From Lachnospiraceae bacterium (lineage in GTDB: Bacteria > Bacillota > Clostridia > Lachnospirales > Lachnospiraceae): a stretch of DNA of 52,657 nucleotides. Position numbers and translations under genes: made by a program. The stretch spans positions 1-52,657 of the forward strand of contig JAILGE010000007.1 of the NCBI GenBank assembly GCA_024697065.1, written 5' to 3'. The notes under the pieces are model-generated. The model was not told the origin of the DNA, did no database searches, and was given only the letters and a program-made list of their open reading frames with translations. This document shows positions 3,850-22,552 of the stretch, in pieces (position 1 is the stretch's first letter; each line of letters opens with the position of its first letter).

Positions 3850-4126
3850 CTGTAATAAATGGCGTAGGGTGCCGATCCGCATGAGATCGGGTAAAAGGGA
3901 AGCGGGTGAGAATCCCGCACGAACTCGTCACCGTGATCCGATATGAATATACGTGATATCTGTCTGTAGGATATCAGCCACTGGGAAACCGGGAAGGTGT
4001 ATATTCTGAGATCGGTAAGCCGGGAAACCTGCCTTTCGCAGTACATGGATCTGTGGTGGATCCGGGTCACGAGGGATTGACTGTACGAAATGTAAGGTTC
4101 TTTTGGTGTTCCCTTTTGACTTTTTT
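3850..4126 (+). ncRNA. Cobalamin riboswitch with terminator expression platform
   Basis: The core matches the cobalamin class. TAAAAGGGAA near 3892 is followed by GGTGAGAATCCCGC and the CACCGTGA segment near 3930. The B12 box AGCCGGGAAACCTGCC lies at about 4018-4033. Downstream, GTCACGAGGGA (4066-4076) can pair with TCCCTTTTGAC (4110-4120), an 11-bp stem with one mismatch, followed by six T (4121-4126). That is an intrinsic terminator. The expected logic is that bound adenosylcobalamin favours termination before the cobaltochelatase gene, so this gene is off when the vitamin is plentiful. The exact ends are approximate. Confidence 0.9.
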
Positions 4127-4187: not shown

Positions 4188-5828
4188 ATGAAGAAAAGAG
4201 TGTTAAAAATGGCGACTGTTTTGATGACGGCAGCCATGGTTACAGGCTGTGCAAATCAGCCCAATGTTAACCCTGACGAGCCGGGAGTTTCAGATGCGAA
4301 TGCCTCAGAGGCTTCTGATGTAACTGAAGCGCCTGTGGAAGAAGTTGATGACCAGGCGGCAGCTGATGCGGTTGCGGCACTGATAGATGCTATTTATGTT
4401 CAGACAAGAACAGACGAGACTGATGCACAGTGTCTTGCTGCTAAAGAAGGCTGGGATGCACTTACTGATGCTCAGAAGGAGCTTGTTGAAGGCGAATTTG
4501 CTGATCCTGATTATTTTGGAAGAGATACGGGTGATGCGTCCAGGGATGATGCAGGTAATGCTGATGAGATAGGTGAGAATGAGATCCTTGTAGTAAGCTT
4601 CGGAACCTCATTCAATGATTCAAGAGTCGAGGACATAAATGGTATTGAGAAGGCTATTGCGGATGCTTATCCCGATTGGTCAGTAAGAAGAGCTTTTACA
4701 GCTCAGATAATCATTAACCATGTTCAGGCAAGAGATGGTGAAGTGATCGATAATATGGATCAGGCACTTGCAAGAGCAAAAGCTAACGGTGTTAAGAACC
4801 TTATTATCCAGCCTACACATCTTATGCACGGTGCTGAATATGATGAACTTAAGGATGCTGTTGAAGCTTGCTCCGGAGATTTTGAGAAGGTTGTTATAGC
4901 AGAGCCTTTGCTTGGTGAAGTCGGAAAAGATGCAACTGAGATCAATTCCGATAAGGAAGCAGTTGCCAAGGCTGTTGTTGCTGCTGCTGTAAAGGAGGCG
5001 GGTTTCGAAGATATCGCCGCAGCAGAAGCTGATGGATGTGCATTTGTATTTATGGGACACGGTACCTCTCATACTGCTAAGGTTACATACAGTCAGATGC
5101 AGACACAGTTTGATCAGCTTGGGATAAAGAATGTATTTGTAGGAACTGTTGAGGGAGAACCCGAAGAGACAGCCTGTGATGTGATCATTGATAAAGTAAA
5201 AGAAGCAGGTTACAAGAAGGTTATCCTCAGACCCCTTATGGTTGTTGCGGGTGATCATGCAAACAATGATATGGCAGGAGATGAAGAGGATTCATGGAAG
5301 AGCATGTTTGAGGCTTCAGGTGCTTTCGACAGCGTAGATTGCCAGATTTCCGGCCTTGGAAGAATAGATGATATTCAGGCTATTTATATCGCTCATACTG
5401 CAGCTGCCATCGATGGGGCGGGTGTCACTGTTGAAAAGACAGAGAATGCAGCGGTTTCAGAGCTTAAGGATGGTACATATTCTGTTGATTTTAAGACTGA
5501 CAGCTCAATGTTCAAAGTAAATGAAGTCTGTGAAGGCAAGGGTACCCTTACTGTTAAGGACGGTAAAATGACAGTTCATATCGTTCTTGGATCCAAGAAT
5601 ATAGTAAACCTTTACCCGGGACTTGCTGAAGATGCGCAGAAGGATGGTGCAAGTCTTCTTGAGCCTGTTGTTGAAACAGTTAAATATTCTGATGGAACAA
5701 CTGAGGATGTTAACGCTTTTGATGTTCCTGTAACAGTGATCGGTGAGGATTTCGATCTCGCTCTTATCGGTACCAAGGGAGTATGGTACGATCATAAGGT
5801 AAGCGTATCCGATCCCGTTGCCGAATAA
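4188..5828 (+). CDS. cbiK: Lipoprotein sirohydrochlorin cobaltochelatase (CbiK family) with extra domains
   Basis: This 546-residue protein would insert Co(II) into sirohydrochlorin, the first step of the anaerobic cobalamin route. Residues 1-21 are a lipoprotein signal ending in VTGC (Cys21). An acidic linker is followed by a helical FIVAR-like segment (about 55-110). The CbiK domain spans about 131-410, with the metal-binding histidines His291 (MGHGT) and His357 (GDHAN). A beta-rich domain fills about 425-546. Cytoplasmic CbiK enzymes are near 265 residues, so both flanks are extra. Export to the outer membrane face recalls the periplasmic CbiK of Desulfovibrio. The C-terminal domain resembles the N-terminal domain of the next lipoprotein. 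AGGAGG precedes the ATG. Expression is under the cobalamin riboswitch. The metal and the site of action are inferred. Confidence 0.85.
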   Translation: MKKRVLKMATVLMTAAMVTGCANQPNVNPDEPGVSDANASEASDVTEAPVEEVDDQAAADAVAALIDAIYVQTRTDETDAQCLAAKEGWDALTDAQKELVEGEFADPDYFGRDTGDASRDDAGNADEIGENEILVVSFGTSFNDSRVEDINGIEKAIADAYPDWSVRRAFTAQIIINHVQARDGEVIDNMDQALARAKANGVKNLIIQPTHLMHGAEYDELKDAVEACSGDFEKVVIAEPLLGEVGKDATEINSDKEAVAKAVVAAAVKEAGFEDIAAAEADGCAFVFMGHGTSHTAKVTYSQMQTQFDQLGIKNVFVGTVEGEPEETACDVIIDKVKEAGYKKVILRPLMVVAGDHANNDMAGDEEDSWKSMFEASGAFDSVDCQISGLGRIDDIQAIYIAHTAAAIDGAGVTVEKTENAAVSELKDGTYSVDFKTDSSMFKVNEVCEGKGTLTVKDGKMTVHIVLGSKNIVNLYPGLAEDAQKDGASLLEPVVETVKYSDGTTEDVNAFDVPVTVIGEDFDLALIGTKGVWYDHKVSVSDPVAE

Positions 5829-5897: not shown

Positions 5898-7484
5898 ATG
5901 ATTATTATGATCAGAAAGAGTCTTTTGATAACGATAACCGTAGGTATGATATTGCTTTCAGGATGCAGTTCGAAGCTGCAGGAACCTGCTGTATCCGCAC
6001 AGGCAGTTGTATCTTCGCAGGATGAAAAGCTGCATGATGGAGAATATAGCATTGAATTATCCCTCGAGGGTGGATCGGGTAAGGCTTCAATAGCCTCTCC
6101 CGCTAAAATCATTGTTAAGAACGGCGAGATGACTGTAGAGATAATCTGGAGCAGCTCCAACTATGATTATATGATCCTTGATGGAACCAAGTATACGGCT
6201 GAGATAAAGGATGAAAAATCCTGCTTTTATATTCCTGTTAAGGCTTCCGATGAATACCTTGATATTAAAGCTGATACTACCGCCATGAGTAAGCCGCATG
6301 AGATCGATTATAAGTTGATCTTCTCATGGGATACGTTTAAGGATGCTTATGGGGGTGTAGTATCATTTGATGTTCCTGATAACGACGGGATGACCCGGAA
6401 TGAGAATCTGTGGTCCCATACTTCAATTAGTTCGGAGTTAAATGATCCGGACAGGATGGATATGGATCGCGCCACGGAATTTGATGTCTGGTATTATGAC
6501 GGCGGATACAGAGAGCTTCGTATCTCCGACGGCACGAGGATACTGGTTGTACCGGAAGGAGGAGAGGTGCCCGGAGATCTTGATGCCGATGTTAAGGTGT
6601 TAAATGATCCGGTGAATGATATTTACATGGTCAGTACTTCCGGAATGGATTATTTCGATAAGACAGACTCCCTTGACAGACTTAAGTTTACAAGTCTTGA
6701 AGCAGGTGACTGGGAATCGGAAAACGTAAATGCAAAAATGTTTAGCGGGGATATCAGATATGCGGGAAAATACAGTGCGCCGGATTATGAGATGCTTAAA
6801 GCTGACGGTTGTCGTCTTGTTATAGAGAATACCATGATCCTTCATTCTCCCGAGGTATCGGAAAAGCTGGAAGAGCTGGGATTTCCTGTTATCATTGATA
6901 TGTCAAGTTACGAGGCGGATCCTTTGGGACGGGCTGAATGGGTAAGATTTTACGGAGCTTTGCTTGGCTGTGAGGATAAAGCTGATGAAGCGTATGAAAA
7001 GCAAAAAACATTCGCAGAACAGGTTATAAGTGAAGTTGAGAGCAGCTACTCTGACACGAAAAAGAATGCTCTTATCTTTTATTTTACCGATAATGGTATG
7101 GTGAATGTGAAAAATTCCTCCGATTATCTTGCCACAATGATAGAGATGTGCGGAGCTGATTATATATATGAGAATAGTGAAGGAAAGAATCCCGGAAGTG
7201 CATCGGCGACAATATCTTCGGAAGATTTTTACTCGCTCGCGTTGAACGCGGATATACTGATATATAATACAACTATAGCAGGAAGTGTTGATTCCAAAGA
7301 GGATCTTTTGGCTGATTACAGTCTTTTGAGCGGGTTTAAGGCATATCAGAATGACGGGATTTACAGAATGAATTCCAATGTATTTCAAAATCCCATGTCT
7401 GCCGGAGAGATAATGGAAGAGATGTATGAGATCATATCAACCGGCGAAGATGATCAGGGGAACTTTTTTGACAGATTAAGATGA
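5898..7484 (+). CDS. Corrinoid/iron-type ABC substrate-binding lipoprotein with N-terminal beta domain
   Basis: This 528-residue lipoprotein has a signal ending in LSGC (Cys23). Residues about 46-145 form a beta-rich domain (DGEYSIEL, VKNGEMTVEI, SSNYDYMILDG) that is repeated at the C-terminus of the preceding cobaltochelatase and is faintly like NEAT haem-binding domains. Residues about 195-528 are a class III binding protein of the BtuF/FhuD type, with two lobes joined by a long helix (about 365-385). Directly downstream are a matching permease and ATPase, so it probably delivers cobalamin, cobinamide or another corrinoid, although a ferric chelate cannot be excluded. The ATG at 5907 is an alternative start; AAGG at 5890-5893 is the only ribosome site. 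Confidence 0.82.
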   Translation: MIIMIRKSLLITITVGMILLSGCSSKLQEPAVSAQAVVSSQDEKLHDGEYSIELSLEGGSGKASIASPAKIIVKNGEMTVEIIWSSSNYDYMILDGTKYTAEIKDEKSCFYIPVKASDEYLDIKADTTAMSKPHEIDYKLIFSWDTFKDAYGGVVSFDVPDNDGMTRNENLWSHTSISSELNDPDRMDMDRATEFDVWYYDGGYRELRISDGTRILVVPEGGEVPGDLDADVKVLNDPVNDIYMVSTSGMDYFDKTDSLDRLKFTSLEAGDWESENVNAKMFSGDIRYAGKYSAPDYEMLKADGCRLVIENTMILHSPEVSEKLEELGFPVIIDMSSYEADPLGRAEWVRFYGALLGCEDKADEAYEKQKTFAEQVISEVESSYSDTKKNALIFYFTDNGMVNVKNSSDYLATMIEMCGADYIYENSEGKNPGSASATISSEDFYSLALNADILIYNTTIAGSVDSKEDLLADYSLLSGFKAYQNDGIYRMNSNVFQNPMSAGEIMEEMYEIISTGEDDQGNFFDRLR

Positions 7485-8515
7485 ACAAAGAGATAAAGAA
7501 AAAAAGCAATTTGTCTTATTTTGTATTATTTATGATACTGGGGATTTTGACTGCAGTCTTTTTTGCCGCGAACATATGCACAGGAAGTGTAAACATCGGG
7601 TTGGACAGTCTGACAGACCTGATCTGCGGCAGAGGCGGCGATGATACGGTAAGGAGCATAATAGTGGATATAAGACTCCCCAGGACTATCGCTGCTTTTT
7701 TTCTTGGAGGTGCACTTGCGCTGTCAGGATATCTTCTTCAGACATATTTATATAATCCGATAGCAGGGCCTTTTATACTAGGTATATCATCCGGAGCAAA
7801 GATGACAGTAGCTGTTGCAATGATGGTATTTATGAATGCAGGTATCAGAATGAATTCTTTTACACTTATCATGGCGGCTTTTGTAGGATCAATGATATCC
7901 ATGTTATTTGTACTGTTCCTTTCGGACAGAGTCGGAAGTATGGCTATGCTTGTCATTAGCGGAATGATGATAGGCTATATCTGTTCTGCCATCACAGATC
8001 TTATAGTAACATTCGCTGATGATGCGAACATCGTAAATCTTCATAACTGGTCGAGAGGAAGTTTCTCAGGAATGAATCATGAAAACGCTGCTGTGATCGC
8101 GGTGGTGATCCCGCTGGCATTTACAGGTGTATTATTACTTGCCAAGCCCATAAGTGCATGGCAGATGGGTGAGTCATACGCTGTAAGTGTCGGGGTAAAT
8201 CTTAAGGCTGTAAGATTCGCGATAGTCATACTTTCAGGCATTTTGTCTGCATGTACGGTGGCATTTGCGGGACCGGTTTCATTTGTGGGAGTTGCGGCAC
8301 CTCATCTTGTCAGAAGGATGTTCGGGACTGTCAGACCGATGGTGATGATACCGGCCTGTTTTATGAGCGGTGCAGTATTCTGTCTGTTTTGCGATCTGCT
8401 GGCAAGAACCGTGATGGCGCCGACAGAACTTGGTATCAGTACGGTTACTGCTGTTTTCGGTGCGCCGGTTGTTCTGGCCGCAGTCATAGAGAGAAGAGCT
8501 TCGAGGATGAGATAA
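7481..8515 (+). CDS. FecCD/BtuC-family ABC permease
   Basis: This 344-residue integral membrane protein carries a single BtuC-like unit with about nine or ten hydrophobic spans. The family motifs are present: RLPRTIAAFFLGG followed by LSGYLLQ near residue 68-90, NPIAGPFILGISSGA, and near the C-terminus GPVSFVGVAAPHLVRRM, the loop that contacts the ATPase. It would work as a homodimer to move corrinoid (or a ferric chelate) across the membrane. Its ATG overlaps the upstream stop in ATGA, indicating translational coupling with the binding lipoprotein. Context in the cobalamin cluster favours a BtuC role over siderophore transport. Confidence 0.88.
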   Translation: MNKEIKKKSNLSYFVLFMILGILTAVFFAANICTGSVNIGLDSLTDLICGRGGDDTVRSIIVDIRLPRTIAAFFLGGALALSGYLLQTYLYNPIAGPFILGISSGAKMTVAVAMMVFMNAGIRMNSFTLIMAAFVGSMISMLFVLFLSDRVGSMAMLVISGMMIGYICSAITDLIVTFADDANIVNLHNWSRGSFSGMNHENAAVIAVVIPLAFTGVLLLAKPISAWQMGESYAVSVGVNLKAVRFAIVILSGILSACTVAFAGPVSFVGVAAPHLVRRMFGTVRPMVMIPACFMSGAVFCLFCDLLARTVMAPTELGISTVTAVFGAPVVLAAVIERRASRMR

Positions 8516-9274
8516 TTGGTTAAGGATACTGTTTTAAAAGTATACGGCCTTGATGCCGGATATGACGGAAAGCTGGTTGTAAGCGGCATCGACTTTCAAT
8601 TGGCGGAAGGTGAGATATTATCTCTTATCGGACCTAACGGTGCAGGTAAATCCACTATTCTAAAGACGATATCGGCACAGCTCGATAAGAAAAGCGGTAG
8701 CGTTTCCTTTAAGGGCAGGGAAGTTTCTCTTATGGAACGCAAGGAGAGAGCAAGGGAGATAGCAGTTGTGCTGACAGGCGGTATAAAGACCGGAATGTTA
8801 AGCTGCAGAGAAGTGGTGGAAAGCGGTCGATATCCTTATACAGGTATCCTTGGCAAACTCTCCGATACGGACAGACAGATAGTTGATGATGCAATGAGAC
8901 TTGCCGGGGCTGATATTTATGCTGAAAGCGATATAGACAGGATAAGTGACGGACAGCGACAAAGAGTACTTCTTGCCTGCGCCATAGCTCAGGAACCTAA
9001 ACTAATACTTCTTGATGAACCGACATCTTTTTTGGATATCAAAGGAAAATATGAATTTATGGATGCGCTGGTCCGCCTTTGCAAAGAAAGAAAAATGTCA
9101 GCGATAATGTCTATACATGAACTTGAACTGGCCGGAAAAGTATCCGACAGGATCTTATGTATAAGGGATAATAAAGCCGACCGCTATGGCACACCTGATG
9201 AAATACTTAAAAATGATTATATTGCCGAACTATTCGGGCTTGATGATGAATTGATGAAAAAATTCAGGGACTGA
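8516..9274 (+). CDS. BtuD/FecE-family ABC transporter ATPase
   Basis: This 252-residue ATPase powers the BtuC-like permease. Walker A is GPNGAGKST (near residue 39), the signature is ISDGQRQR in place of LSGGQ, Walker B is LILLDEP, and the switch histidine is in SIHELE. The TTG start at 8516 directly follows the permease stop; GAGG at 8503-8506 gives suitable spacing, and no ATG lies near the expected N-terminus. The LSGGQ variation to SDGQ is common in the FecE/BtuD group. Together with the two upstream genes it makes a complete importer inside the cobalamin biosynthesis run. Confidence 0.88.
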   Translation: MVKDTVLKVYGLDAGYDGKLVVSGIDFQLAEGEILSLIGPNGAGKSTILKTISAQLDKKSGSVSFKGREVSLMERKERAREIAVVLTGGIKTGMLSCREVVESGRYPYTGILGKLSDTDRQIVDDAMRLAGADIYAESDIDRISDGQRQRVLLACAIAQEPKLILLDEPTSFLDIKGKYEFMDALVRLCKERKMSAIMSIHELELAGKVSDRILCIRDNKADRYGTPDEILKNDYIAELFGLDDELMKKFRD

Positions 9275-9277
9275 TAT

Positions 9278-9931
9278 ATGACAAATAAAATTATTGAGAA
9301 TTTAAAACCGCTTGATATAGAGAAGAGAAGTTTTGAGATCATTTCGGAAGAGCTTGCCGAAATGGGGGTGGTTCTTCCGAAGGATCAGGAGATGATCACC
9401 AAAAGAGTGATCCATGCAAGCGCTGATTTTGAGTATGCGGATACGCTGATATATTCGGATACCGCCATAGAGACTGCTAGAAGGCTGCTTGGGGAAGGCT
9501 GCATCATAGTTACGGATACAAATATGGCGCGTTCCGGTATCAATCTTAAAACGCTGGAAGCATTGGGATGTGAAGCTTTCTGCTTTATGAATGATGAGAA
9601 GATCGCGGAAAGATCAAAAGTAACAGGTGAAACAAGGGCTGCCTTATCTATGGAACATGCCGCGAAAGTTTTTCACGATAAACCTGTTATGATAGTTTCA
9701 GGAAATGCACCTACCGCACTTTTAAAGATCAGGGAATTATACGACAGGGGTGAATACCGTCCGGATCTTGTTATAGGAGTTCCGGTCGGATTTGTAAATG
9801 TGGAAGCGGCCAAGGAACTGATAATGGAGACTGATATCCCTTATATAGTCAACAGAGGACGAAAGGGCGGCAGTAATATTGCCGCAGCTATAGTGAACGC
9901 ATTAATGTACGGGATCTGCAGGAATGTATGA
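9278..9931 (+). CDS. cbiC: Cobalt-precorrin-8 methylmutase CbiC
   Basis: This 217-residue enzyme moves the C11 methyl group to C12, turning cobalt-precorrin-8 into cobyrinate. The conserved catalytic histidine lies in KRVIHASADFEY (near residue 46). Other family blocks are VTDTNMARSG, VSGNAPTAL and the C-terminal GRKGGSNIAAA. The length is normal (about 210). The gene starts three bases after the importer ATPase and ends in an ATGA overlap with cbiD. The reaction is the last ring rearrangement of the corrin core, although the gene comes first among the biosynthetic genes. Confidence 0.93.
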   Translation: MTNKIIENLKPLDIEKRSFEIISEELAEMGVVLPKDQEMITKRVIHASADFEYADTLIYSDTAIETARRLLGEGCIIVTDTNMARSGINLKTLEALGCEAFCFMNDEKIAERSKVTGETRAALSMEHAAKVFHDKPVMIVSGNAPTALLKIRELYDRGEYRPDLVIGVPVGFVNVEAAKELIMETDIPYIVNRGRKGGSNIAAAIVNALMYGICRNV

Positions 9932-11052
9932 GAAACGGATTTACAACAGGAAGTTGTGCTGCTGCAGCTGCTAAGGCGGCTGTGTTTATGCTGCTTTCCG
10001 GAAATGAGAAAAAAACGATCGGTATCAATACACCTGCAGGAGTTCTATTCAGTACTGCAGTCAATAATATTTCTCGGACAGAAGAGAGCGTAACCTGTAG
10101 CGTTACTAAGGATGGCGGAGACGATCCGGATGTGACTACGGGTATGGAGATATTTGTAACAGTTGAGAAAAATGATCAAAATAGCGGGATCGTGATAAAA
10201 GGCGGAAAGGGCGTGGGTGTCGTGACCAGACCCGGCCTTGATCAGCCTGTGGGCGAGGCGGCAATCAATCATGTCCCGAGAGAAATGATAAGAGAAAATG
10301 TGGCTGAGGTTTGCAGTCTCTTTGATCATACGGAAGGTATCACTGTTACGGTATCGGTTCCCGGGGGAGAGGAACTCGCTCTTAAAACATTTAATCCAAG
10401 ACTTGGCATAGAAGGCGGTATTTCCATTATCGGAACGAGCGGTATAGTTGAACCTATGAGCGAAAGCGCTCTTATAGAGACTATATATATAGAACTCAGA
10501 CAACGCAGGGAGATGGGATTTGAGGATATAGTGATAGCACCGGGAAATTACGGACGGGATTTCCTTAAATCATCATACGGTTTTGATGTTGATAAAAGTG
10601 TTAAATGCAGCAATTATATTGGAAAGACACTGGACAGTGTAGCCGGGCTTGGCTTTAAAAGAGTATTGCTCACAGGTCATGTCGGGAAGCTGATAAAGAT
10701 CTCAGGTGGGATAATGAACACTCATTCTGCGGAAGGTGACTGCCGAATGGAATTGATGGCTGCATGGGCATTAAAAGCCGGTGCGGATGCAGAAATGGCA
10801 AACCGTATACTTGACTGTATCTCTACGGAGGCAGCCATAGAAGTAATGAATTCCTATGATAAGAATCTGGTGCCCGGGGCAATGGAAAGAGCTATGGATA
10901 AGATGATATTTCATATGGATCACAGACTGGAAAAAGCTGCGCTCCGGTATGGAAAAGAAAAGCCGCAGATAGAAAGTATCATGTTTGATAATATCAACGG
11001 AAAGCTGGCGGCCAGTGCAGGGGCCGAGGAAATGCTGGCTGTTTTTCTGTAA
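9928..11052 (+). CDS. cbiD: Cobalt-precorrin-5B C1-methyltransferase CbiD
   Basis: This 374-residue protein starts with the family hallmark RNGFTTGSCAAAAAKA. It adds the C1 methyl group of the corrin ring in the anaerobic route, after CbiG has opened the delta-lactone. Later family blocks include GGKGVGVVTRPGL, the IGTSGIVEPMSE segment, and GHVGKLIKISGGIMNTHS. The length is standard. It overlaps cbiC by four bases (ATGA). CbiD is diagnostic of the oxygen-independent pathway, so it fixes the pathway type for the cluster. Confidence 0.94.
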   Translation: MRNGFTTGSCAAAAAKAAVFMLLSGNEKKTIGINTPAGVLFSTAVNNISRTEESVTCSVTKDGGDDPDVTTGMEIFVTVEKNDQNSGIVIKGGKGVGVVTRPGLDQPVGEAAINHVPREMIRENVAEVCSLFDHTEGITVTVSVPGGEELALKTFNPRLGIEGGISIIGTSGIVEPMSESALIETIYIELRQRREMGFEDIVIAPGNYGRDFLKSSYGFDVDKSVKCSNYIGKTLDSVAGLGFKRVLLTGHVGKLIKISGGIMNTHSAEGDCRMELMAAWALKAGADAEMANRILDCISTEAAIEVMNSYDKNLVPGAMERAMDKMIFHMDHRLEKAALRYGKEKPQIESIMFDNINGKLAASAGAEEMLAVFL

Positions 11053-11068
11053 AAACGGGAGATTAGGT

Positions 11069-12829
11069 ATGGTTTATTTTGTCGGAGCGGGTTCCGGAGC
11101 AGAGGATCTGATAACGGTAAGAGGAATGCATCTTCTTGAAAAAGCAGATGTTGTCATATATGCAGGCTCTCTTGTAAATCCGGGGATTCTAAAATATTGC
11201 AAAGATGATTGCGAGATTCATGACAGTTCAAAACTGCATCTCGATGAAGTGATAAATATCATAAAAGAAGCTGAGAGCAAGGGTCTTACTACCGTAAGAC
11301 TTCATACCGGAGAACCCAGTTTGTACGGCGCCGTGAGAGAACAGATGGATGAGCTGGACAGATCGGATATCAGATATGAGAGTTGTCCGGGAGTGACAGC
11401 GGCGTTTGGTGCGGCGGCATCTCTTGATCTGGAATATACTTTGCCCGGAATATCCCAGTCTCTTATCATTACCAGGATGGAAGGGAGAACAGCAGTCCCG
11501 GAGGGAGAAAGTATAGAGAGTTTGGCAGGACACCATTCATCCATGGCGATATATTTAAGCACCGGAATGCTGGAAAGATTAAGTGCCAAACTCATAAGTG
11601 GAGGATATTCGGCCGATACACCTGCGGCTATAGTATATAAAGCTACATGGCCTGATGAGAAAAAGGTTATCTGTACCGTGGGTACATTGGCTGAGAGCGC
11701 TGAGTCCGAGGGGATAAAGAAAACCGCCATAGTCCTTGTGGGAGATGTGATCCGGAAAAAAAATTATGAACGCTCGAAGCTTTATGATCCTGCTTTTACA
11801 ACGGAATTCAGGAAGGGGACAGATCAGACAGATGCCGTTAATACAAAAGACAGGGATGCTGAGGATACTAAAAAGCTCTATGGTGAGGCGGCAGTTATAA
11901 GTTTCACTGACAGAGGGTACGAAGCGGCATGTACCTTGAAAGAAAAGGTCAGAGGCAGCTTCAGTGATATCAGTATAAGCTCGGCGATGAAGAACAGACC
12001 GGATCATGCAGACAGAGATGAGTGGACGGTAAAGCAATTTGAAGACAAGAAGATACTGATCTTTATCGGTGCTGTGGGTATAGCGGTAAGAAGTATCGCA
12101 CCACATATCAAAGATAAGCTTCATGACAGTCCGGTTATAGTACTTGATGAAGAATTAAGATGCGTGATACCGCTTCTTTCCGGGCATATCGGTGGTGCCA
12201 ATGAGATCGCGGGATTGATCGCAAAAAAGACAGGCGCGTATCCTGTCATTACCACAGCTTCGGATCTAAAAGGCGCTTTTGCTTCTGACATGTTTGCGCA
12301 GAACAATTATCTGAAGATCATCAATAAAAACGGTATCGCTGCTGTTACCGGCAAGGCACTTACCGGTGCTGACATAATAGTGAGTGCCGATAAGGGAACA
12401 TTACCTGACGGAAGAGCATTACTTTTTCTTACACCAAAGAAGTATGTGGTGGGCATAGGATGCAGAAAGGGTAAATCTTTCGAAGAACTGGAAGATTTCT
12501 TTATGCAAATGCAAAGAGAGACCGGGATAGAAGATGAAGATATCGCGGCTATAGTCTCTATAAATGACAAGAAGGAAGAAGCGGGGATCATAAGGCTTGC
12601 CCAGTATCACAGGTGCAGATTTATCACTTTTTCCGCGGATGAATTAAAAACTCTGGAGGGGGATTTTAATTCTTCCGAGTTTGTACTCAATACTGTCGGG
12701 GTAGACAATGTATGTGAACGGTCAGCCCTTTACTTTTGCAATAATGTCTGCTCAAACGAAGGAAGGATAATATATCCCAAGCATGCAAAAGACGGCATTA
12801 CCATGGCTGTTGCGGAAAGAGTGATGTGA
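11069..12829 (+). CDS. cbiFG: CbiF-CbiG fusion: cobalt-precorrin-4 C11-methyltransferase and cobalt-precorrin-5A hydrolase
   Basis: This 586-residue protein joins two consecutive enzymes. Residues 1-~250 are a CbiF methyltransferase (FVGAGSGAEDLITVRG, YAGSLVNP, HTGEPSLYGAVREQ, CPGVTAAFGAAA). Residues ~273-586 are CbiG, including FIGAVGIAVRSIAPHI, the SGHIGGANEIA motif and the C-terminal MAVAERVM. CbiF methylates C11; CbiG opens the A-ring lactone and releases acetaldehyde. The acidic linker about 235-270 looks flexible. The start is ATG 11069 behind CGGGAG; a longer reading frame reaches back into cbiD but has no ribosome site. The stop overlaps cbiH in TGATG. Fusion could channel the unstable lactone intermediate. 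Confidence 0.92.
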   Translation: MVYFVGAGSGAEDLITVRGMHLLEKADVVIYAGSLVNPGILKYCKDDCEIHDSSKLHLDEVINIIKEAESKGLTTVRLHTGEPSLYGAVREQMDELDRSDIRYESCPGVTAAFGAAASLDLEYTLPGISQSLIITRMEGRTAVPEGESIESLAGHHSSMAIYLSTGMLERLSAKLISGGYSADTPAAIVYKATWPDEKKVICTVGTLAESAESEGIKKTAIVLVGDVIRKKNYERSKLYDPAFTTEFRKGTDQTDAVNTKDRDAEDTKKLYGEAAVISFTDRGYEAACTLKEKVRGSFSDISISSAMKNRPDHADRDEWTVKQFEDKKILIFIGAVGIAVRSIAPHIKDKLHDSPVIVLDEELRCVIPLLSGHIGGANEIAGLIAKKTGAYPVITTASDLKGAFASDMFAQNNYLKIINKNGIAAVTGKALTGADIIVSADKGTLPDGRALLFLTPKKYVVGIGCRKGKSFEELEDFFMQMQRETGIEDEDIAAIVSINDKKEEAGIIRLAQYHRCRFITFSADELKTLEGDFNSSEFVLNTVGVDNVCERSALYFCNNVCSNEGRIIYPKHAKDGITMAVAERVM

Positions 12830-13560
12830 TGAAAAGGATAGATATTATTGGAATGGGCCCCGGAAGAGAGTCGATGATGACAGGGGATGCCATTAAGGCT
12901 TTGGATGAGGCTGATATTATAGTTGGATACAAGGTTTATCTGGATCAGCTTGGTGAACGGTATTCAAACAAGGAAATGTATGACACCCCCATGAGAAAGG
13001 AACGGGAGAGGTGTCTGTATTGCTTTGAAAAAGCCAAAGAGAACAGACAGGTGGCTCTTATATGCAGTGGAGACGCGGGAGTATACGGCATGGCGTCTCT
13101 CATGTATGAGATAGGAGAATCATATAAAGATATAGAATTGAATGTTATCCCGGGGATCACTGCGGCTTTAAGCGGGGCGGCAATACTGGGTGCTCCGGTC
13201 AATCATGACTTTTGCCTGATCAGCTTAAGTGATGTACTCACACCATGGGAGAAGATAGAAAAGAGATTAAAAGCTGCCGTTGAGGGTGATTTCGTCATTG
13301 TTATCTATAACCCTCAAAGCAGGAGCAGAAAGGGATATATCGGAAGGGCTGCGGATATAATAACCCAATATGGCGGCGGAGCCCGTGTTTGCGGTTATGT
13401 CAGGAATATAGGAAGAGACGGGATGCTTAGCCGGATCTGTAAGATATCAGACCTGGAAAATGAAGATATTGATATGTTTACGACAGTTTTTATAGGTAAT
13501 TCAGATACAAAGATCGTAAACGGAAAGATGGTCACTCCGAGAATTGTACATGAAAGATAA
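12829..13560 (+). CDS. cbiH: Cobalt-precorrin-3 C17-methyltransferase CbiH
   Basis: This 243-residue SAM-dependent enzyme methylates C17 and contracts the ring by forming the delta-lactone. It shows the tetrapyrrole methylase pattern: GMGPGRESMMT at the N-terminus, the SGDAGVYGMASLMYE motif near residue 80, the VIPGITAALSGAAILGAP block and IYNPQSRSRKGY. The ATG is in a TGATG overlap with cbiFG; a GTG three bases earlier is possible. The length fits stand-alone CbiH of about 240 residues, without the C-terminal ferredoxin-like extension seen in some Bacillus relatives. Confidence 0.92.
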   Translation: MKRIDIIGMGPGRESMMTGDAIKALDEADIIVGYKVYLDQLGERYSNKEMYDTPMRKERERCLYCFEKAKENRQVALICSGDAGVYGMASLMYEIGESYKDIELNVIPGITAALSGAAILGAPVNHDFCLISLSDVLTPWEKIEKRLKAAVEGDFVIVIYNPQSRSRKGYIGRAADIITQYGGGARVCGYVRNIGRDGMLSRICKISDLENEDIDMFTTVFIGNSDTKIVNGKMVTPRIVHER

Positions 13561-15022
13561 GGAAAAGATCATATTATTTGCTGGGACTAGCGAGGGCAGG
13601 AGACTGTCCGAAAAGCTGTCATCATACGGTATCAGTCATATAGTTTCGGTCGCTACCGACTATGGGAAGTCTCTGCTGGGTGAAAGTCACTTTGCCAAAG
13701 TGATAGAGGGACGGCTTGATGAACCTGCAATGGAAGAACTGTTTATAAACGAGAAGATTACCGTTGTAGCAGATGCTACTCATCCTTATGCGATCGAGGT
13801 TACGGCAAATCTCAAAAAAGCTGCGGAGAGAACGGGCGTTAAGTACTTACGGCTTGCCAGAGAAAAGTTAAAGATCCCTTCGGGGGCAGAGCTGTTTTTT
13901 GATAATGAAAGCTGTGCCGATCATCTGGAAAATGCATACAGGTCAGGCCTGCTTAAAGGAAATGTGCTCATTACCACAGGCAGCAAGGAGCTTTCTGTTT
14001 ATGCATGCAGGGAAGAACTCAGACATAGATTGTATGTACGTATCATTCCTGATGAGAAGAGCTTTGAGATCTGCAGAAATGCAGAGATAAAAACAGATCA
14101 TATCATAGCAATGCAAGGGCCTTTCTCGGAAGAGTTAAACAGTGCGATCATCCGTGAGTTCGGTATAGATGCGCTGGTAACTAAGGAAAGCGGTACTGCT
14201 GGCGGTTTTGCGGAAAAGATCAGAGCAGCTGTCAATAATGATATAAAGCTTTGTGTTATCGCAAGACCCGATGAAGATGGAATCGGAGAAGATGAGATGT
14301 TCAGGCTTCTTACGGGCATCGAGGGGCTTAAAGATGGTAACGTAAAAGATTGCAGGGGGCACATCTCATTGATCGGTGCGGGACCGTATGAAAAGGATCT
14401 TTTAACGATTAAAGCAGGGAAAATGATAGAAGAGGCCGATTACATTATCGGTGCGGAGAGCATTATCGCCCCTTTTAAAGCACGGATCGGCAAGAAAGCC
14501 GCATACCTTCCCGGAGATATCATTCCTTACATCAAAGATCTGTTGAATGATACAGACGCGGATGAGCTTAATATTGCGGTGCTGTTTTCAGGCGACAGCG
14601 GATTCTTCAGCGGCTGCGGAAAGTGTTATGCGGGATTAGATCAGGCGATCAGATCCGGTGATATAGATGCCGAAATAACTGTGCTCCCCGGTATATCTTC
14701 CGTGTCATATATGTCTTCACTTCTTGGAGTGAGCTATGATACTGCCGGCATACTCTCTGTTCATGGGAGAGACAGGCAAGAGGGGCTGGCAGAGCTTCTA
14801 AAAATCCTTGAAGAGAAGAAAAGATGTTTTATGCTGGTATCAGGTGATGAAGATGTGAGGATTACTGCGGACTACCTGATGAGAAAAGGCTTTAATGACT
14901 GCAGGATTACAGCAGGCTGTTCGCTGTCTGTTGGTGGTAAGGAAGAGATCCGGAAGATGACTGCGGATACGGCGGTAAACTTTTCATCAGAGGGGAAAAT
15001 ACTGCTTTATATCGAATCATAG
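13550..15022 (+). CDS. cbiJE: CbiJ-CbiE fusion: cobalt-precorrin-6A reductase and precorrin-7 C5-methyltransferase
   Basis: This 490-residue protein combines two steps. Residues 1-~255 are the NAD(P)H-dependent reductase CbiJ/CobK, with LFAGTSEGRRL at the N-terminus, DATHPYAIEVT, YLRLAREK, TTGSKEL and VTKESGTAGG. Residues ~266-490 are the C5-methyltransferase CbiE (SLIGAGPYEKDLLT, FSGDSGFFSGC, LPGISSVSYMSSLLG, HGRDRQEGL). CbiT, the C15 partner of CbiE, follows as a separate gene, so here CbiE is fused backward to the reductase rather than forward to CbiT as in CobL. The start ATG 13550 lies inside cbiH (11-base overlap); TTG 13544 is less likely. Confidence 0.92.
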   Translation: MKDKEKIILFAGTSEGRRLSEKLSSYGISHIVSVATDYGKSLLGESHFAKVIEGRLDEPAMEELFINEKITVVADATHPYAIEVTANLKKAAERTGVKYLRLAREKLKIPSGAELFFDNESCADHLENAYRSGLLKGNVLITTGSKELSVYACREELRHRLYVRIIPDEKSFEICRNAEIKTDHIIAMQGPFSEELNSAIIREFGIDALVTKESGTAGGFAEKIRAAVNNDIKLCVIARPDEDGIGEDEMFRLLTGIEGLKDGNVKDCRGHISLIGAGPYEKDLLTIKAGKMIEEADYIIGAESIIAPFKARIGKKAAYLPGDIIPYIKDLLNDTDADELNIAVLFSGDSGFFSGCGKCYAGLDQAIRSGDIDAEITVLPGISSVSYMSSLLGVSYDTAGILSVHGRDRQEGLAELLKILEEKKRCFMLVSGDEDVRITADYLMRKGFNDCRITAGCSLSVGGKEEIRKMTADTAVNFSSEGKILLYIES

Positions 15023-15086
15023 ATCAAAGATAAATCAAGAGATCCGGAGGATGTCGATCCGGAGATTCTCATCGGGGAGATCAAAT

Positions 15087-15692
15087 ATGGATTACAGAAG
15101 ATATTCGGAATATACATCTATACCTGACAGTGAATTCATAAGAGGAAAAGTTCCCATGACTAAGGAGGAAGTGAGGACCGTAACTATTTCCAAACTTCAT
15201 CTTGGCAGTAACAAAGTCTTCTGGGATATAGGAAGCGGCACGGGATCGGTTTCCGTACAGGCAGCCATAATGTATCCGGGACTCAGGATCTGTGCCATCG
15301 AGCATGATCCGGAAGGTATAGAGCTTATCAAAAAGAATATGGATAAGTTTGCAACCGATGGTATCGAAGTCATAGAAGGCGATGCACCTGATTGTTTTGC
15401 GCACATATCCGGAAGAGCCCCGGATGCAGCTTTTATCGGCGGAAGCGGAGGGAAGTTGGAACAAATAATAGAAAAACTCTATGAGTTAAATGATCATATG
15501 CGTATTGCCGTAAATGCGGTTACCACCGAAACGGTGATAGCTATCAATAATATAATGAAACAATATCCAATTAAGGACAGAGATGTTATTCAGATGTATG
15601 TAAGCAGGGAGAGGGAAATCGGAAACCTTCACCTGATGGAGGCCCAGAACCCCGTGTATATAGCAGTATTTGATCTGAACGGAGACCGCTGA
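15087..15692 (+). CDS. cbiT: Cobalt-precorrin-7 C15-methyltransferase (decarboxylating) CbiT
   Basis: This 201-residue Rossmann methyltransferase adds the C15 methyl group and decarboxylates the C12 acetate side chain, paired with the CbiE half of the preceding fusion. The SAM motif is WDIGSGTGSVSVQA, followed by AIEHDPEGIELI and the GGSGGKLE loop. PDSEFIRGKVPMTKEEVR is the usual CbiT N-terminal block. ATG 15087 is chosen because CGGGGAGA lies 7-12 bases upstream. An ATG at 15051 has GGAGG only one base away, too close to function, and would add residues unlike the family. Confidence 0.92.
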   Translation: MDYRRYSEYTSIPDSEFIRGKVPMTKEEVRTVTISKLHLGSNKVFWDIGSGTGSVSVQAAIMYPGLRICAIEHDPEGIELIKKNMDKFATDGIEVIEGDAPDCFAHISGRAPDAAFIGGSGGKLEQIIEKLYELNDHMRIAVNAVTTETVIAINNIMKQYPIKDRDVIQMYVSREREIGNLHLMEAQNPVYIAVFDLNGDR

Positions 15693-17065
15693 TGAGTATG
15701 AAGCGAGTAATGATAGCAGCTGCAGGCAGTAACAGTGGTAAGACCTGCATTAGCTGTGCGTTGATGGCAGCATATAAAGAGGCAGGATTAAACGTATCGG
15801 GTGCCAAGTGTGGCCCGGATTATATCGATCCCATGTTTCATGAAATAGTTCTTGGGATCCCTTCTGTCAATCTGGATCCTTATTTTTCCGAGAAAAAGGA
15901 ACTGAGGTCTCTCACGGCGGCTGCCTGCAGAGAATCGGATATCCTCATCATAGAGGGAGTTATGGGGCTTTATGATGGACTTGGAGGTGTGAAGACCGAA
16001 GCGTCTTCATACGATCTGGCAGTAAAAACGGATACCCCCATAATACTTGTGATCGATGCAAAGGGAGTGGGGATAACTGTCATACAGATCATAAGAGGAA
16101 TACTGTCTGCTGATAAAAAGCATCTTATCAAAGGTATCATCCTCAATAAGGTAAGCAAGAGCTACGCTAATATCATTGCGCCTTTGATAAAGGAACAGAC
16201 CGGGGTTGCGGTATGCGGAACGATGCCATATGATGCATCCTTTGGCATAGAGAGCAGACACCTTGGCCTGAATCTTCCGCATGAAGTAAAAGATCTGAAA
16301 AGTAAGGTGGCCGGAGCAGCAGGTAAGATAAGAGATAATTCTGATCTCGGGATGATATTAAAGATCGCATCCGAAGCAAAAGAGATAAAGGACGGCAATA
16401 AAGATATAGATATACATAACGAAGATGCCGTTTCAAAACCGGTACTTGCTGTTGCAAGAGATGAGGCTTTTTGTTTTTACTACAGAGAAAACTTAAGACT
16501 CTTTGAAAAAAACGGATGCAGGATAGAGTATTTCTCGCCGATACGGGATGAGGGACTTCCTGAAGGGTGCGCGGGGGTATTGCTTGGAGGCGGATATCCC
16601 GAACTCTATCTTCAAGAATTATCTTCCAACCGAAAGATGAAAAACGCCGTGAGAAAAGCTGTATCTTCAGGTATTCCGTTACTTGCAGAGTGCGGAGGAT
16701 TTATGTATCTGCAAAACAGTATAAAACTGAAGGACTGCGGAAGAAAGAAGATGTCCGGGATCTTTGCCGGAGATTGTGAAATGAAAGACAAACTCGTGCG
16801 ATTTGGATATATAGAGCTTACATCAAAGAAAAATACTGCGTATATAAAAAGGGGTGAGAAGATCAAAGCTCATGAATTTCATTATTTTGACTGCACGGAT
16901 AACGGAAGCAGTTTGATCGCAATGAAACCGGTAACAAAAAGAAGCTATGATTGTATAAAGGCTGAAGGTAATATCCTATGCGGATTCCCTCATTTGTATT
17001 ATCCTTCATGTCCGGAACTTGTAAGCCGTTTTACGGAAAAAATGCGTGAATATGCCAATGAATGA
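15692..17065 (+). CDS. cbiA: Cobyrinate a,c-diamide synthase CbiA
   Basis: This 457-residue ATP- and glutamine-dependent enzyme amidates the a and c side chains of cobyrinate. The N-terminal dethiobiotin-synthetase-like domain has the P-loop AAGSNSGKT (near residue 9-17), then KCGPDYIDPMFH and EGVMGLYDG. The C-terminal class I glutaminase domain has GVLLGGGYPELY, the nucleophile Cys in LAECGGFMYL, and the KAHEFHYF histidine. Length and order are typical. The start is in a TGATG overlap with cbiT. In the anaerobic route the substrate already contains cobalt. Confidence 0.94.
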   Translation: MSMKRVMIAAAGSNSGKTCISCALMAAYKEAGLNVSGAKCGPDYIDPMFHEIVLGIPSVNLDPYFSEKKELRSLTAAACRESDILIIEGVMGLYDGLGGVKTEASSYDLAVKTDTPIILVIDAKGVGITVIQIIRGILSADKKHLIKGIILNKVSKSYANIIAPLIKEQTGVAVCGTMPYDASFGIESRHLGLNLPHEVKDLKSKVAGAAGKIRDNSDLGMILKIASEAKEIKDGNKDIDIHNEDAVSKPVLAVARDEAFCFYYRENLRLFEKNGCRIEYFSPIRDEGLPEGCAGVLLGGGYPELYLQELSSNRKMKNAVRKAVSSGIPLLAECGGFMYLQNSIKLKDCGRKKMSGIFAGDCEMKDKLVRFGYIELTSKKNTAYIKRGEKIKAHEFHYFDCTDNGSSLIAMKPVTKRSYDCIKAEGNILCGFPHLYYPSCPELVSRFTEKMREYANE

Positions 17066-18170
17066 TATGTTACACGGTGGAGAGTGGAAAGATAACAAAA
17101 TACAGCTGGATTACAGTGTCAACCTAAATCCTCTTGGAATGCCTGCGGAAGTAAAACGCCTTATCGCAGATGACAGATTTGCTTCACTGACAGAAAGATA
17201 TCCGGATAGGGAATGTGAGGAATTAAGACAGCTTTTGGGGAAGAGATACGGTGTAGATAAAGAAAGCGTTATCTGCGGCAACGGAGCGTCAGAGCTCATT
17301 ATGAATACGATAAAAGCTTTGGCACTGTTGGGTATCAGAAAGGTGATGCTCCCTGTTCCTTCTTTTATCGGATATGAGAGAAGTCTGGAAGCTCCATTTT
17401 GCCAAACATCAATCAAAACCGTATATTACACACTGGAAAGAAAGGACTGTTTTGCTTTTACGGATGCTTTTATCCGTGAACTTGAATCTTTTACCGGTTC
17501 GGACTCTGCAGAGGGAGATAAAGCACTTATACTCTGTAATCCAAATAATCCCACAGGTCAGCTTATGGATAAAGATCTGTCGGATAAGGTGATCAAAATT
17601 TGCTCGGAAAGCGGGATAAGGCTTGTTGTTGATGAATGCTTTCTTGGATTTTGTAACGATGAGAGTAAAAGAACTTTAAAGCATCTTACGAAAAGCATTC
17701 CGAATATCTGTGTGATCGATGCTTTTACAAAGCTTTATTCAATACCGGGCATAAGGCTCGGATTTATGATCTCCGGAGATGGAAAGCTTGTTGATACGGT
17801 AAAAAAACTGCTCCCCGAATGGAACGTTTCCATGCCTGCACAGGAGGTCGGAAAAGAGATATTGCATAAGGTATCGGCCGGGTATATCGAAGAAACGAAA
17901 ATGCTTGTTAACAGAGAACGGGAGTATCTGTGTGATGAACTAACTAAGGCTGGCTTTACGGTTTATCCGGGGGATGCATGCTTCATTCTTTTCAGGACAC
18001 CCGAAAATGATAAGTATCATAATCTTCAGACTGTGCTGGCAGGCAGAGGGATACTAATCAGAAACTGCGGTAATTTTAAAGGGCTTGATAGATACGATCA
18101 CAGGATAGCAGTAAGGGATCGCTGCGATAATGAGATCCTGATAAAGACGATTAATGAATGCCTGGTATGA
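17052..18170 (+). CDS. cobD: L-threonine-O-3-phosphate decarboxylase CobD (Salmonella nomenclature)
   Basis: This protein of about 372 residues is a fold type I PLP enzyme close to histidinol-phosphate aminotransferase. It makes (R)-1-aminopropan-2-ol O-phosphate, the linker for the nucleotide loop. MLHGGEW near the N-terminus, LDYSVNLNPLGMP, CGNGASELI, NPNNPTGQ, VVDECFLGF and the PLP lysine in DAFTKLYSIPGIRLG are all visible; FLGF-type wording and the cluster context separate it from HisC. Three in-frame ATGs (17052, 17058, 17067) and a GTG (17046) lie around the cbiA stop, with no strong ribosome site, so the start is uncertain by a few codons. Confidence 0.9.
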   Translation: MPMNDMLHGGEWKDNKIQLDYSVNLNPLGMPAEVKRLIADDRFASLTERYPDRECEELRQLLGKRYGVDKESVICGNGASELIMNTIKALALLGIRKVMLPVPSFIGYERSLEAPFCQTSIKTVYYTLERKDCFAFTDAFIRELESFTGSDSAEGDKALILCNPNNPTGQLMDKDLSDKVIKICSESGIRLVVDECFLGFCNDESKRTLKHLTKSIPNICVIDAFTKLYSIPGIRLGFMISGDGKLVDTVKKLLPEWNVSMPAQEVGKEILHKVSAGYIEETKMLVNREREYLCDELTKAGFTVYPGDACFILFRTPENDKYHNLQTVLAGRGILIRNCGNFKGLDRYDHRIAVRDRCDNEILIKTINECLV

Positions 18171-18194: not shown

Positions 18195-19670
18195 ATGGCA
18201 AAGACCATAATGATTCAGGGGACTATGTCCGGGGCGGGAAAAAGTCTTATAACAGCGGGATTATGTCGTGTGTTCATGCAGGACGGGCACAGGACAGCGC
18301 CTTTTAAATCCCAGAATATGGCCCTTAATTCTTTCATAACAAAAGAAGGACTTGAGATGGGCAGAGCACAGGTTATGCAGGCTGAAGCGGCAGGCATAGA
18401 ACCGGAAGTTGCCATGAACCCTATACTTTTGAAGCCTACGAATGATGTGGGATCACAGGTGATAGTTAACGGAGAAGTGCTTGGAAATATGGGGGCGGTG
18501 GAATATTTTGCTTACAAGAAAAAGCTTATTCCCGACATAAAGAAAGCGTTTGCTTCATTGGAAGAAAAGTATGACATCATAGTGATAGAAGGAGCAGGAT
18601 CTCCCGCAGAGATAAACCTTCGTGAAAATGATATCGTGAATATGGGATTGGCGGAGATCACAGACTCTCCTGTACTTCTTGCTGCCGATATCGACAGAGG
18701 CGGTGTTTTTGCGCAGTTGCTTGGAACAGTCGAACTCTTGGCAAAGGAAGAGAGAGCGCGGGTTGAGGGGTTTATCATCAATAAATTCAGAGGTGATAAG
18801 TCTATATTGGATCCGGGAATTAAGATGTTAGAGGAGAGATGCGGCATTCCCGTTGTGGGCACGCTGCCATATTTAAACGTATCATTCGATGATGAGGATT
18901 CTCTTAGTGAAAGGCTCACGGCTAAAGACAGGAGTGACAACAGTTGTATAGATATTGCGGTTATCAGATATCCCAGAATTTCCAATTTTACGGATTTCAA
19001 TGTATTTGAATATATAGAAGGCGTAAATGTAAGATATGTTTCCGGAGTGCCGGAACTGGGTAATCCGGATATCATCTTTTTGCCGGGAAGCAAGAATACA
19101 ATGGCGGATCTTAAGTGGATGAGAGAGTGCGGCCTGGAAGCGGCAGTGATCTCCGCTTCAGGGCGTATCCCTGTGTTTGGAATATGCGGAGGGTATCAGA
19201 TGCTGGGAAGCCGGATAAGCGATCCTGATCATTCCGAACAGGGAGGCGAGATCAGGGGAATGGGATTGCTGCCTCAATCCACGGTTTTACTTAAGAATAA
19301 AACCAGGAAGCAGATCCGGGGGCAGGCGGATTTTCCTGCGGGATTCTTTGGTAGTATAAAGGATATTGATTATTCGGGATATGAGATCCATATGGGAAGG
19401 ACTACCTGTGACAACGGAGAAGAAGCAGAGCTTATAACAGGTAACGGAGAACTTGTATGCGGAAGCTACGTTCACGGGCTTTTTGATGATGGATCCGTAG
19501 CAGAAGATATCGTAAAGCTGCTTGCTAAGAAGAAGGGGATAGGTTTTGAACCGGAAAGCTTTGACTATGCTGCGATTAAAGAGCACAATTATGATCTCCT
19601 GGCGGAAATGATAAGGAAGAATCTGGATATGGAGAAAGTATATGCCATGCTTCGGGAGTCTGCGGTATGA
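18195..19670 (+). CDS. cbiP: Adenosylcobyric acid synthase CbiP (CobQ)
   Basis: This 491-residue enzyme amidates the b, d, e and g side chains of adenosylcobyrinate diamide using glutamine and ATP. The P-loop is GTMSGAGKS (near residue 9), followed by [10 protein letters not shown], the [11 protein letters not shown] block and [14 protein letters not shown]. The glutaminase domain has [12 protein letters not shown], the nucleophile in [11 protein letters not shown] and the histidine in [15 protein letters not shown] precedes the ATG. The stop overlaps cobT in ATGA. Its substrate must first be adenosylated, which points to the adenosyltransferase gene at 23558 on the other strand. Confidence 0.94.
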
Positions 19671-22541: not shown

Positions 22542-22552
22542 GAAAAACGGGA

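Follow-up and report, generated by a model that had tools for sequence, protein, structure and literature searches.

The stretch of DNA analysed here (hereafter the window) comprises 52,657 nucleotides of a Lachnospiraceae bacterium (GenBank assembly GCA_024697065.1, contig JAILGE010000007.1), and the gene under study, at 4188..5828 on the forward strand, encodes a CbiK-family chelatase that is predicted to be exported and that probably serves the salvage of tetrapyrrole precursors from outside the cell. This cbiK gene heads an operon that continues with a NEAT-like binding protein, a FecCD/ATP-binding cassette (ABC) importer, and the corrin-ring pathway. The features are given below with their coordinates, strand, and supporting evidence (E-values unless stated otherwise).

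3850..4050, + strand: cobalamin riboswitch RF00174, leading the operon (87.5 bits, E 2.7e-20)
4188..5828 (coding 4188-5825), + strand: open reading frame (ORF) of 546 amino acids, CbiK-family chelatase with a lipoprotein signal and a NEAT-like domain
4188..4250, + strand: predicted lipoprotein signal of CbiK, lipobox cysteine Cys21 (motif rule)
4344..4541, + strand: conserved, partly helical segment, residues ~53-118 (profile scan, alignment, structure model)
4584..5411, + strand: CbiK chelatase domain with His211, Glu217, His291, and His357
5457..5825, + strand: NEAT-like domain 1, fused to CbiK and an adjacent ORF of its own in many relatives (profile scan, relatives, model)
5898..7484, + strand: lipoprotein with NEAT-like domain 2 (residues 43-140) and a class III binding protein, Peripla_BP_2 (NEAT 4.1e-4, binding protein 5.4e-24; model; fold matches)
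7481..8515, + strand: FecCD-type permease (1.9e-73)
8516..9274, + strand: importer ABC ATPase (4.4e-29)
9278..9931, + strand: CbiC (1.3e-70)
9928..11052, + strand: CbiD (TIGR00312, 3.3e-126)
11069..12829, + strand: CbiF-CbiG fusion (profile scan)
12826..13560, + strand: CbiH (profile scan)
13544..15022, + strand: CbiJ-CbiE fusion (profile scan)
15051..15692, + strand: CbiT (profile scan)
15692..17065, + strand: CbiA (profile scan)
17046..18170, + strand: CobD-like, threonine-phosphate decarboxylase (best match TIGR01140, below cut-off)
18195..19670, + strand: CbiP, cobyric acid synthase (profile scan)
19667..20767, + strand: CobT (over cut-off)
20768..21754, + strand: CobU-like (1.1e-20, below cut-off)
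21756..22541, + strand: CobS-like (7.7e-30, below cut-off)
22469..23581, + strand: CbiB (TIGR00380, over cut-off)
23558..24097, - strand: CobA-type adenosyltransferase (4.2e-39, below cut-off)

A further ORF at 1749-3752 (+ strand), which lies 5' of the riboswitch and outside the present finding, carries a glycoside hydrolase 120 insertion domain and beta-helix repeats.

The chelatase domain was identified by its Pfam match to PF06180 (CbiK) over residues 133-408 (E 1.2e-72; 244.8 bits against a cut-off of 26.2), and a Shine-Dalgarno-like AGGAGG was present 5' of the gene. Export was predicted by a motif rule from the signal MKKRVLKMATVLMTAAMVTG-C, in which the lipobox cysteine is Cys21. His291, His357, and Glu217 were aligned with His145, His207, and Glu89 of Salmonella CbiK (1qgo), which we take to be the known active-site residues of that enzyme, and the catalytic residues were unchanged in 93/93 exported and 73/73 cytosolic CbiK copies compared. 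Judged from these sequences, the window protein is a real chelatase, exported by its motif and very probably active. The original prediction of an exported, multidomain CbiK with both metal histidines and an extra beta domain was upheld, this last domain (residues ~425-545) being chiefly strands in the structure model. The FIVAR-like segment that it had also named was not recovered: the matches listed at E<=1 included none to FIVAR (HMMER filters drop most matches above ~0.1), and residues ~53-118 form the conserved, partly helical segment, which ends in ADPDYFGRDTGDASKDDP in the alignment of the protein's subclass. Fused homologues were found in 21 other genomes of different genera, 60-71% identical along the full length or most of it (certain matches begin only at query residue 44-55), and because of this recurrence the fused architecture is more than chance. 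Relatives among the 80 loci listed came mainly from Lachnospiraceae and other Clostridia, many of them of rumen or gut origin and some of them Butyrivibrio isolates from the rumen, together with two Treponema-type metagenome-assembled genomes; the nearest among these loci was Lachnospiraceae bacterium XPB1003 (86%), records close to the window's own genome having possibly been omitted.

The domain that follows the chelatase and the one that opens the binding protein are both chiefly strands in structure models, and by sequence both are NEAT-like only. Among double-NEAT relatives, 20 of 25 matched PF05031 at E<=0.01 (best 1.1e-7; member 1, 25.5 bits), and an alignment profile of these proteins, searched against solved structures, gave its best NEAT chains at E 0.064 and 0.076, which is not significant. 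The Foldseek and VIA-align lists were occupied by the chelatase or binding-protein domain, with no NEAT chain among the matches listed, a result with no bearing against a NEAT fold. The binding protein of the window matched Lmo2184 and, weakly, IsdE.

The genome from which the window was taken (2.69 Mb, 44 contigs, 99.84% complete) contains a single CbiK, which is the window copy. The check for a second, cytoplasmic chelatase that had been proposed with the original prediction yielded none, and a search for CbiX matched only the window cbiK gene itself. HemC gave no match at E<=1 in a search that was positive in 12 of 14 control genomes, HemB was not found, and nothing exceeded the cut-off for uroporphyrinogen methyltransferase (SUMT), the best TIGR01469 match being at 7.4e-46; matches near 1e-45 were rejected as SUMT, as CbiF scores in that range. 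Five TP-methylase genes were present, namely CbiL (TIGR01467, 175.5 bits against a cut-off of 163.25), an RsmI-type 16S rRNA methyltransferase, and the operon's CbiF, CbiH, and CbiE. With HemB, HemC, and SUMT absent and the steps from CbiL to CbiP present, the predicted gene content fits the class of tetrapyrrole precursor salvagers: cobalt-sirohydrochlorin should be processable, and no sirohydrochlorin-making route came to light, though no search covered HemA, HemL, or HemD. The original prediction had named a sole chelatase working without export as a case against it; the window CbiK is indeed the only CbiK or CbiX found, but this reasoning is not simply applicable, because the searches revealed no synthesis of the precursor in the cytosol that could feed the enzyme.

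The relation between CbiK export and HemC was surveyed in 298 genomes of the family, presumably Lachnospiraceae, representing 280 genera. Positive genomes numbered 176 for CbiK, 134 for HemC, 172 for relatives of the window protein, 175 for CbiD, and 140 for SUMT over cut-off, with SUMT present in 134/134 HemC-positive genomes and in six without HemC. At E<=1e-6 there were 13 matches to CbiX, 12 of them inside CbiK matches; the thirteenth was a 288-codon frame of G062, a genome with one CbiK of unlisted coordinates. The export class was read by the motif rule from the N terminus of each CbiK in the fetched stretches. In cytosolic copies the protein either begins close to the CbiK domain or has ~295 residues resembling an ABC ATPase ahead of it; exported copies carry a lipobox, or in a few cases a plain signal peptide, and comprise a long-core group, which includes the window protein, and a short-core group. 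Exported CbiK was found in 93 genomes. Six genomes (G064, G088, G104, G171, G220, and G262) were called exported by eye after the rule had said 'none' or 'SP/TM?', and five HemC-positive genomes (G024, G174, G175, G193, and G218) by similarity alone, without a fetched exported sequence, the call for G174 resting on a fragment at a contig edge.

Export of CbiK tracks the absence of HemC across the family. There were 56 CbiD-positive genomes without HemC, and CbiK was present in 49 of them, exported only in 46, cytosolic only in 2, and unclassified in 1 (G006). The 118 HemC-positive, CbiD-positive genomes with CbiK comprised 70 with a cytosolic copy, 18 with exported CbiK only, and 30 that were not fully classified. 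For the classified CbiD-positive genomes, exported-only CbiK (46 HemC-negative, 18 HemC-positive) compared with a cytosolic copy (2 and 70, respectively) gave a Fisher p of 1.1e-18. HemB was found in 0/48 HemC-negative as against 7/12 HemC-positive genomes tested. On a gene tree of the 93 exported CbiK the HemC state must change 23 times, at least 4 times on well-supported branches, and the pattern was scattered; the tree was poorly resolved, with 8 of 90 inner branches starred.

The original prediction had treated the chelatase as a lone protein, and this view was not sustained, as the protein belongs to a chelatase-relay-importer cassette that is distributed across the family. The recurrent order is CbiK, NEAT1, NEAT2, binding protein, permease, and ATPase, and the gene boundaries move: the window divides the first parts into CbiK-NEAT1 and NEAT2-binding protein, many relatives into CbiK, NEAT1-NEAT2, and binding protein, and others keep all of them separate. 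That fusions shift while the order stays suggests that the parts work together, presumably by hand-over from one to the next. A large fetched stretch was available for 78 of the 93 exported genomes, 76 of them CbiD-positive; NEAT1, NEAT2, the binding protein, and FecCD lay within 6 kb 3' of the exported CbiK at 35 of 46 HemC-negative and 17 of 30 HemC-positive loci. Near cytosolic CbiK, a NEAT-like or binding-protein homologue occurred at 1 of 73 loci, in a stretch that also holds an exported cassette, most of these flanks being 1.5 kb long. A cobalamin riboswitch preceded 28 of the 30 exported-CbiK loci examined, and 4 of 4 named relatives, and among the loci so preceded are HemC-positive ones whose fetched stretch contains no cbi gene. 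The fetched stretches, some of them short, contained cbi genes at 29/46 HemC-negative versus 6/30 HemC-positive exported loci, which is what one would expect of a cassette serving as an optional salvage route in genomes capable of de novo synthesis. Two unusual arrangements were noted: one 946-codon frame (L053 / L133, G192) with two CbiK domains and a NEAT1 domain, and one frame (L085, G141) in which NEAT1 stands before CbiK, the reverse of the usual order.

Cobalt import was assessed by searching for PF01891 (CbiM) in 80 genomes, of which 40 were HemC-negative with exported CbiK only, 12 HemC-positive with exported CbiK only, and 28 had a cytosolic copy; in two of the 28 (G187 and G265) CbiK was classed as cytosolic from ORF length alone. 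By length the 34 matches split into 15 ORFs of 249-317 codons, here called short, and 19 of 333-388 codons, here called long, and the kind of CbiM was set by this length, with 20 of the 34 sequences checked. The motif MHIMEGYLP was present near the start of the matched domain in 7/7 short and 0/13 long ORFs fetched, and among six ORFs scanned a PDGLE domain was present in four long ones and absent from two short ones. We take the short ORFs to be cobalt CbiM and the long ones to be nickel-type. Short CbiM, of stand-alone size, occurred in 15/28 genomes with cytosolic CbiK versus 0/52 exported-only genomes (p 5.6e-9), so that cobalt import accompanies the cytosolic form of CbiK but not the exported form. 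The long kind was found in 10/40 HemC-negative exported-only, 3/12 HemC-positive exported-only, and 6/28 cytosolic-copy genomes.

Further gene arrangements were recorded in the survey. SUMT without HemC was joined to a SirC-like domain in one frame, in the manner of CysG, in G006, G105, G155, and G273 (L236, L234, L235, and L237, respectively), with a sulphite-reductase-like gene also in the fetched stretch of G155 and G273; these four genomes perhaps make sirohaem from outside uroporphyrinogen. HemC was present without HemB in G117, G126, G160, G237, and G270 (5 of the 12 HemC-positive genomes tested), which resemble porphobilinogen salvagers. At G066:C2:39285-40928, HemC and CbiK matches share one 577-codon frame, a HemC-CbiK fusion. 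Cytosolic CbiK behind the ~295-residue ABC-ATPase-like part was seen at L161:607-2268 (G019), where this part has Walker-type motifs, and also at L025, L164, L169, L183, and others; such proteins perhaps combine a cobalt-importer ATPase and a chelatase in one chain.

The reading preferred here, to which we give a probability of roughly two in three, is salvage of tetrapyrrole precursors: the organism would insert cobalt extracellularly into rings made by others, with the relay and importer feeding CbiL. We infer as follows what the enzyme acts on, which way the reaction runs, how its product is relayed, and what is imported. The lipid-anchored CbiK, at the outer face of the membrane, would bind sirohydrochlorin, or a closely related compound, that other organisms have released, and would insert Co2+ to give cobalt-sirohydrochlorin. 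This compound would pass from NEAT-like domain 1, on CbiK, to NEAT-like domain 2, on the binding protein, then to the binding protein itself, and through the FecCD/ABC importer to the cytoplasm, where CbiL would methylate it and the remaining cbi/cob operon would convert it to a cobamide. Plentiful cobamide would switch the unit off through the cobalamin riboswitch. Such a mechanism would explain why the chelatase is exported and is the only one, why upstream enzymes and CbiM are missing, and why a riboswitch and an importer accompany it, and the comparative-genomic case for a salvage system is strong. Among the roles that had been suggested for the exported enzyme, the loading of metal on external tetrapyrroles is thus well supported, since HemB, HemC, and SUMT are absent, CbiL and the later pathway are present, and export tracks HemC absence, and haem scavenging is less likely, because the unit lies under a cobalamin riboswitch and in a cbi operon.

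Several results weigh against extracellular cobalt insertion. The window protein scored 191.7 bits with NF047852, the NCBIfam sirohydrochlorin cobaltochelatase equivalog, below the cut-off of 400, and by this model it is a relative and not an equivalog. Matches of the NEAT-like domains to PF05031 were likewise below the gathering cut-off of 32.8 bits, at 15.4 bits (E 0.026) for domain 1 and 21.2 bits for domain 2; the usual haem-ligand motif of NEAT domains is YxxxY, and it was not retained in the alignment of NEAT1. The four-part cassette was incomplete within 6 kb at 11 of the 46 HemC-negative loci, 8 of which lacked the binding protein or the permease within that distance. Two HemC-negative, CbiD-positive genomes (G051 and G127) have cytosolic CbiK only, and seven others (G031, G077, G109, G121, G173, G246, and G266) have no CbiK at 1e-10, which the mechanism leaves unexplained, as it does the exported-only CbiK of 18 HemC-positive genomes. 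The hem loci read in 15 of these 18 held a SirC-type gene in 11 and a sulphite-reductase-like gene in 4, and for this reason their hem genes may serve sirohaem. Full classes were lacking for 30 of the 118 HemC-positive genomes, for which coordinates or sequence were not obtained. On the tree of exported CbiK, a comparison of second CbiK with HemC provided 4 independent pairs on well-supported branches and was underpowered; on average 1.9 pairs went in the same direction and 0 in the opposite one, which is not significant.

Three alternatives to the salvage reading were weighed. FecCD/ABC importers with a class III binding protein and a cobalamin riboswitch are typical of B12 uptake, and all of these are present at the locus; the importer could then serve ordinary corrinoid (B12 or cobinamide) uptake, with the exported CbiK and the NEAT-like domains capturing corrinoid or cobalt without catalysis, as the lack of any cbi gene in the fetched stretch at 24/30 HemC-positive exported loci might also suggest. 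This account is considered unlikely, given that the chelatase residues were retained in 93/93 exported copies compared and that it leaves unexplained the corrin-ring genes of 46/49 genomes without a known precursor source or cytosolic chelatase.

Less probable still is that the exported CbiK binds or demetallates haem within a cassette for haem/iron uptake of the Isd kind, the role proposed for Porphyromonas gingivalis IhtB, which we take to be the same protein as FetB. FetB, called haem-binding, was among the closest solved structures, the cassette has NEAT-like domains, and its binding protein matches Lmo2184 and IsdE. IhtB has been proposed to remove iron from haem (PMC10913741, PMC6460266), and FetB is said in a 2026 review to put Mn into protoporphyrin (PMC13402209), but IhtB is also reported to be outside Fur control (PMC10913741), and disruption of a cobalt chelatase gene in Bacteroides fragilis is said, from unpublished data, to be harmless to haem-iron use (PMC6460266). 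A haem system also fits poorly with the cobalamin riboswitch at 28/30 loci, the cbi genes at 29/46 HemC-negative loci, and the exported CbiK as sole CbiK of 46 CbiD-positive, HemC-negative genomes, and it predicts no link to the absence of HemC or CbiM.

Chelatases of the CbiK class are best known for metal insertion. Metal exchange, in which iron would be stripped from sirohaem of plants or microbes and cobalt put in, or free sirohydrochlorin released for import, was rated the least probable of the three and differs from the preferred reading mainly in the ring source, although sirohaem would be a plausible source of rings and the CbiK-like FetB is said to swap metals in porphyrins (PMC13402209).

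With salvage by extracellular cobalt insertion as the preferred reading, a wider view, for which we would put the odds as even, is that of a vitamin pathway divided across the membrane: many members of the family from gut and rumen would have dropped the steps before sirohydrochlorin and would insert cobalt at the surface into rings of others, perhaps from sirohaem, so that cobalt would enter within the tetrapyrrole and no dedicated cobalt importer would be needed, and the Porphyromonas Iht/FetB system, known as a haem system, could be the same device in a different phylum, feeding the corrin pathway of its host. Precursor salvage for B12 is predicted in many bacteria, and the cassette offers a concrete candidate system for the uptake of a late ring precursor; the metabolite predicted to be traded in rumen and gut would be sirohydrochlorin, with or without cobalt. 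A genome in which a cbi operon and a 'sirohydrochlorin cobaltochelatase' are present may be mis-scored as that of a de novo B12 maker, and surface CbiK-like proteins now described as haem proteins would have an alternative reading.

Among known systems, the Isd-type NEAT haem relay of Gram-positive bacteria consists of NEAT surface domains, a class III binding protein, and a FecCD importer. The window cassette is like it in having NEAT-like surface domains, a class III binding protein, and a FecCD importer, and unlike it in having a cobalamin riboswitch, a chelatase at its head, and NEAT matches below the curated cut-off. The periplasmic CbiKP of Desulfovibrio vulgaris (PDB 2xvx, 2xvz) is, like the window protein, an exported CbiK, the solved chain being without a NEAT-like domain. 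We know of no link of CbiKP to loss of uroporphyrinogen synthesis, and the second CbiK of D. vulgaris is presumably cytosolic. That this organism has two CbiK is stated in the title of Lobo 2008 (via PMC12654859). HmuS (PMC13227078) was considered as a parallel and rejected, being a CobN-type protein without similarity to CbiK.

Exported CbiK and precursor salvagers are known separately, and their combination is apparently undescribed, as it was not found in the open-licence literature searched, which makes for a weak absence; the available portion of a 2021 review on cobalt (PMC7689651) mentions no exported CbiK. Tetrapyrrole precursor salvagers are an established genomic class, with dependence on 5-aminolevulinate verified (Shelton et al. 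2018, PMC6461909). Like the window genome, they have kept the corrin pathway and lost upstream steps, and they are mostly Firmicutes; unlike the window system, they are given no named uptake system or exported chelatase in the available portion of that paper. The Iht system of P. gingivalis comprises the CbiK-like lipoprotein IhtB, a TonB-dependent receptor, and a binding protein, permease, and ATPase (IhtC-E) (PMC10913741), and this organism is noted as lacking the steps to precorrin-2 (PMC6461909). In publications, IhtB/FetB is read as a system for haem/iron or for Mn-porphyrin. It differs from the window system in its Gram-negative host and TonB-dependent receptor, and its matched chain (PDB 9b86) is the CbiK domain alone, but the two are alike in combining a CbiK-like lipoprotein with a binding protein, a permease, and an ATPase where upstream steps are missing; IhtB/FetB offers a precedent for the action of a surface CbiK on external rings, and may be the same device as the window cassette.

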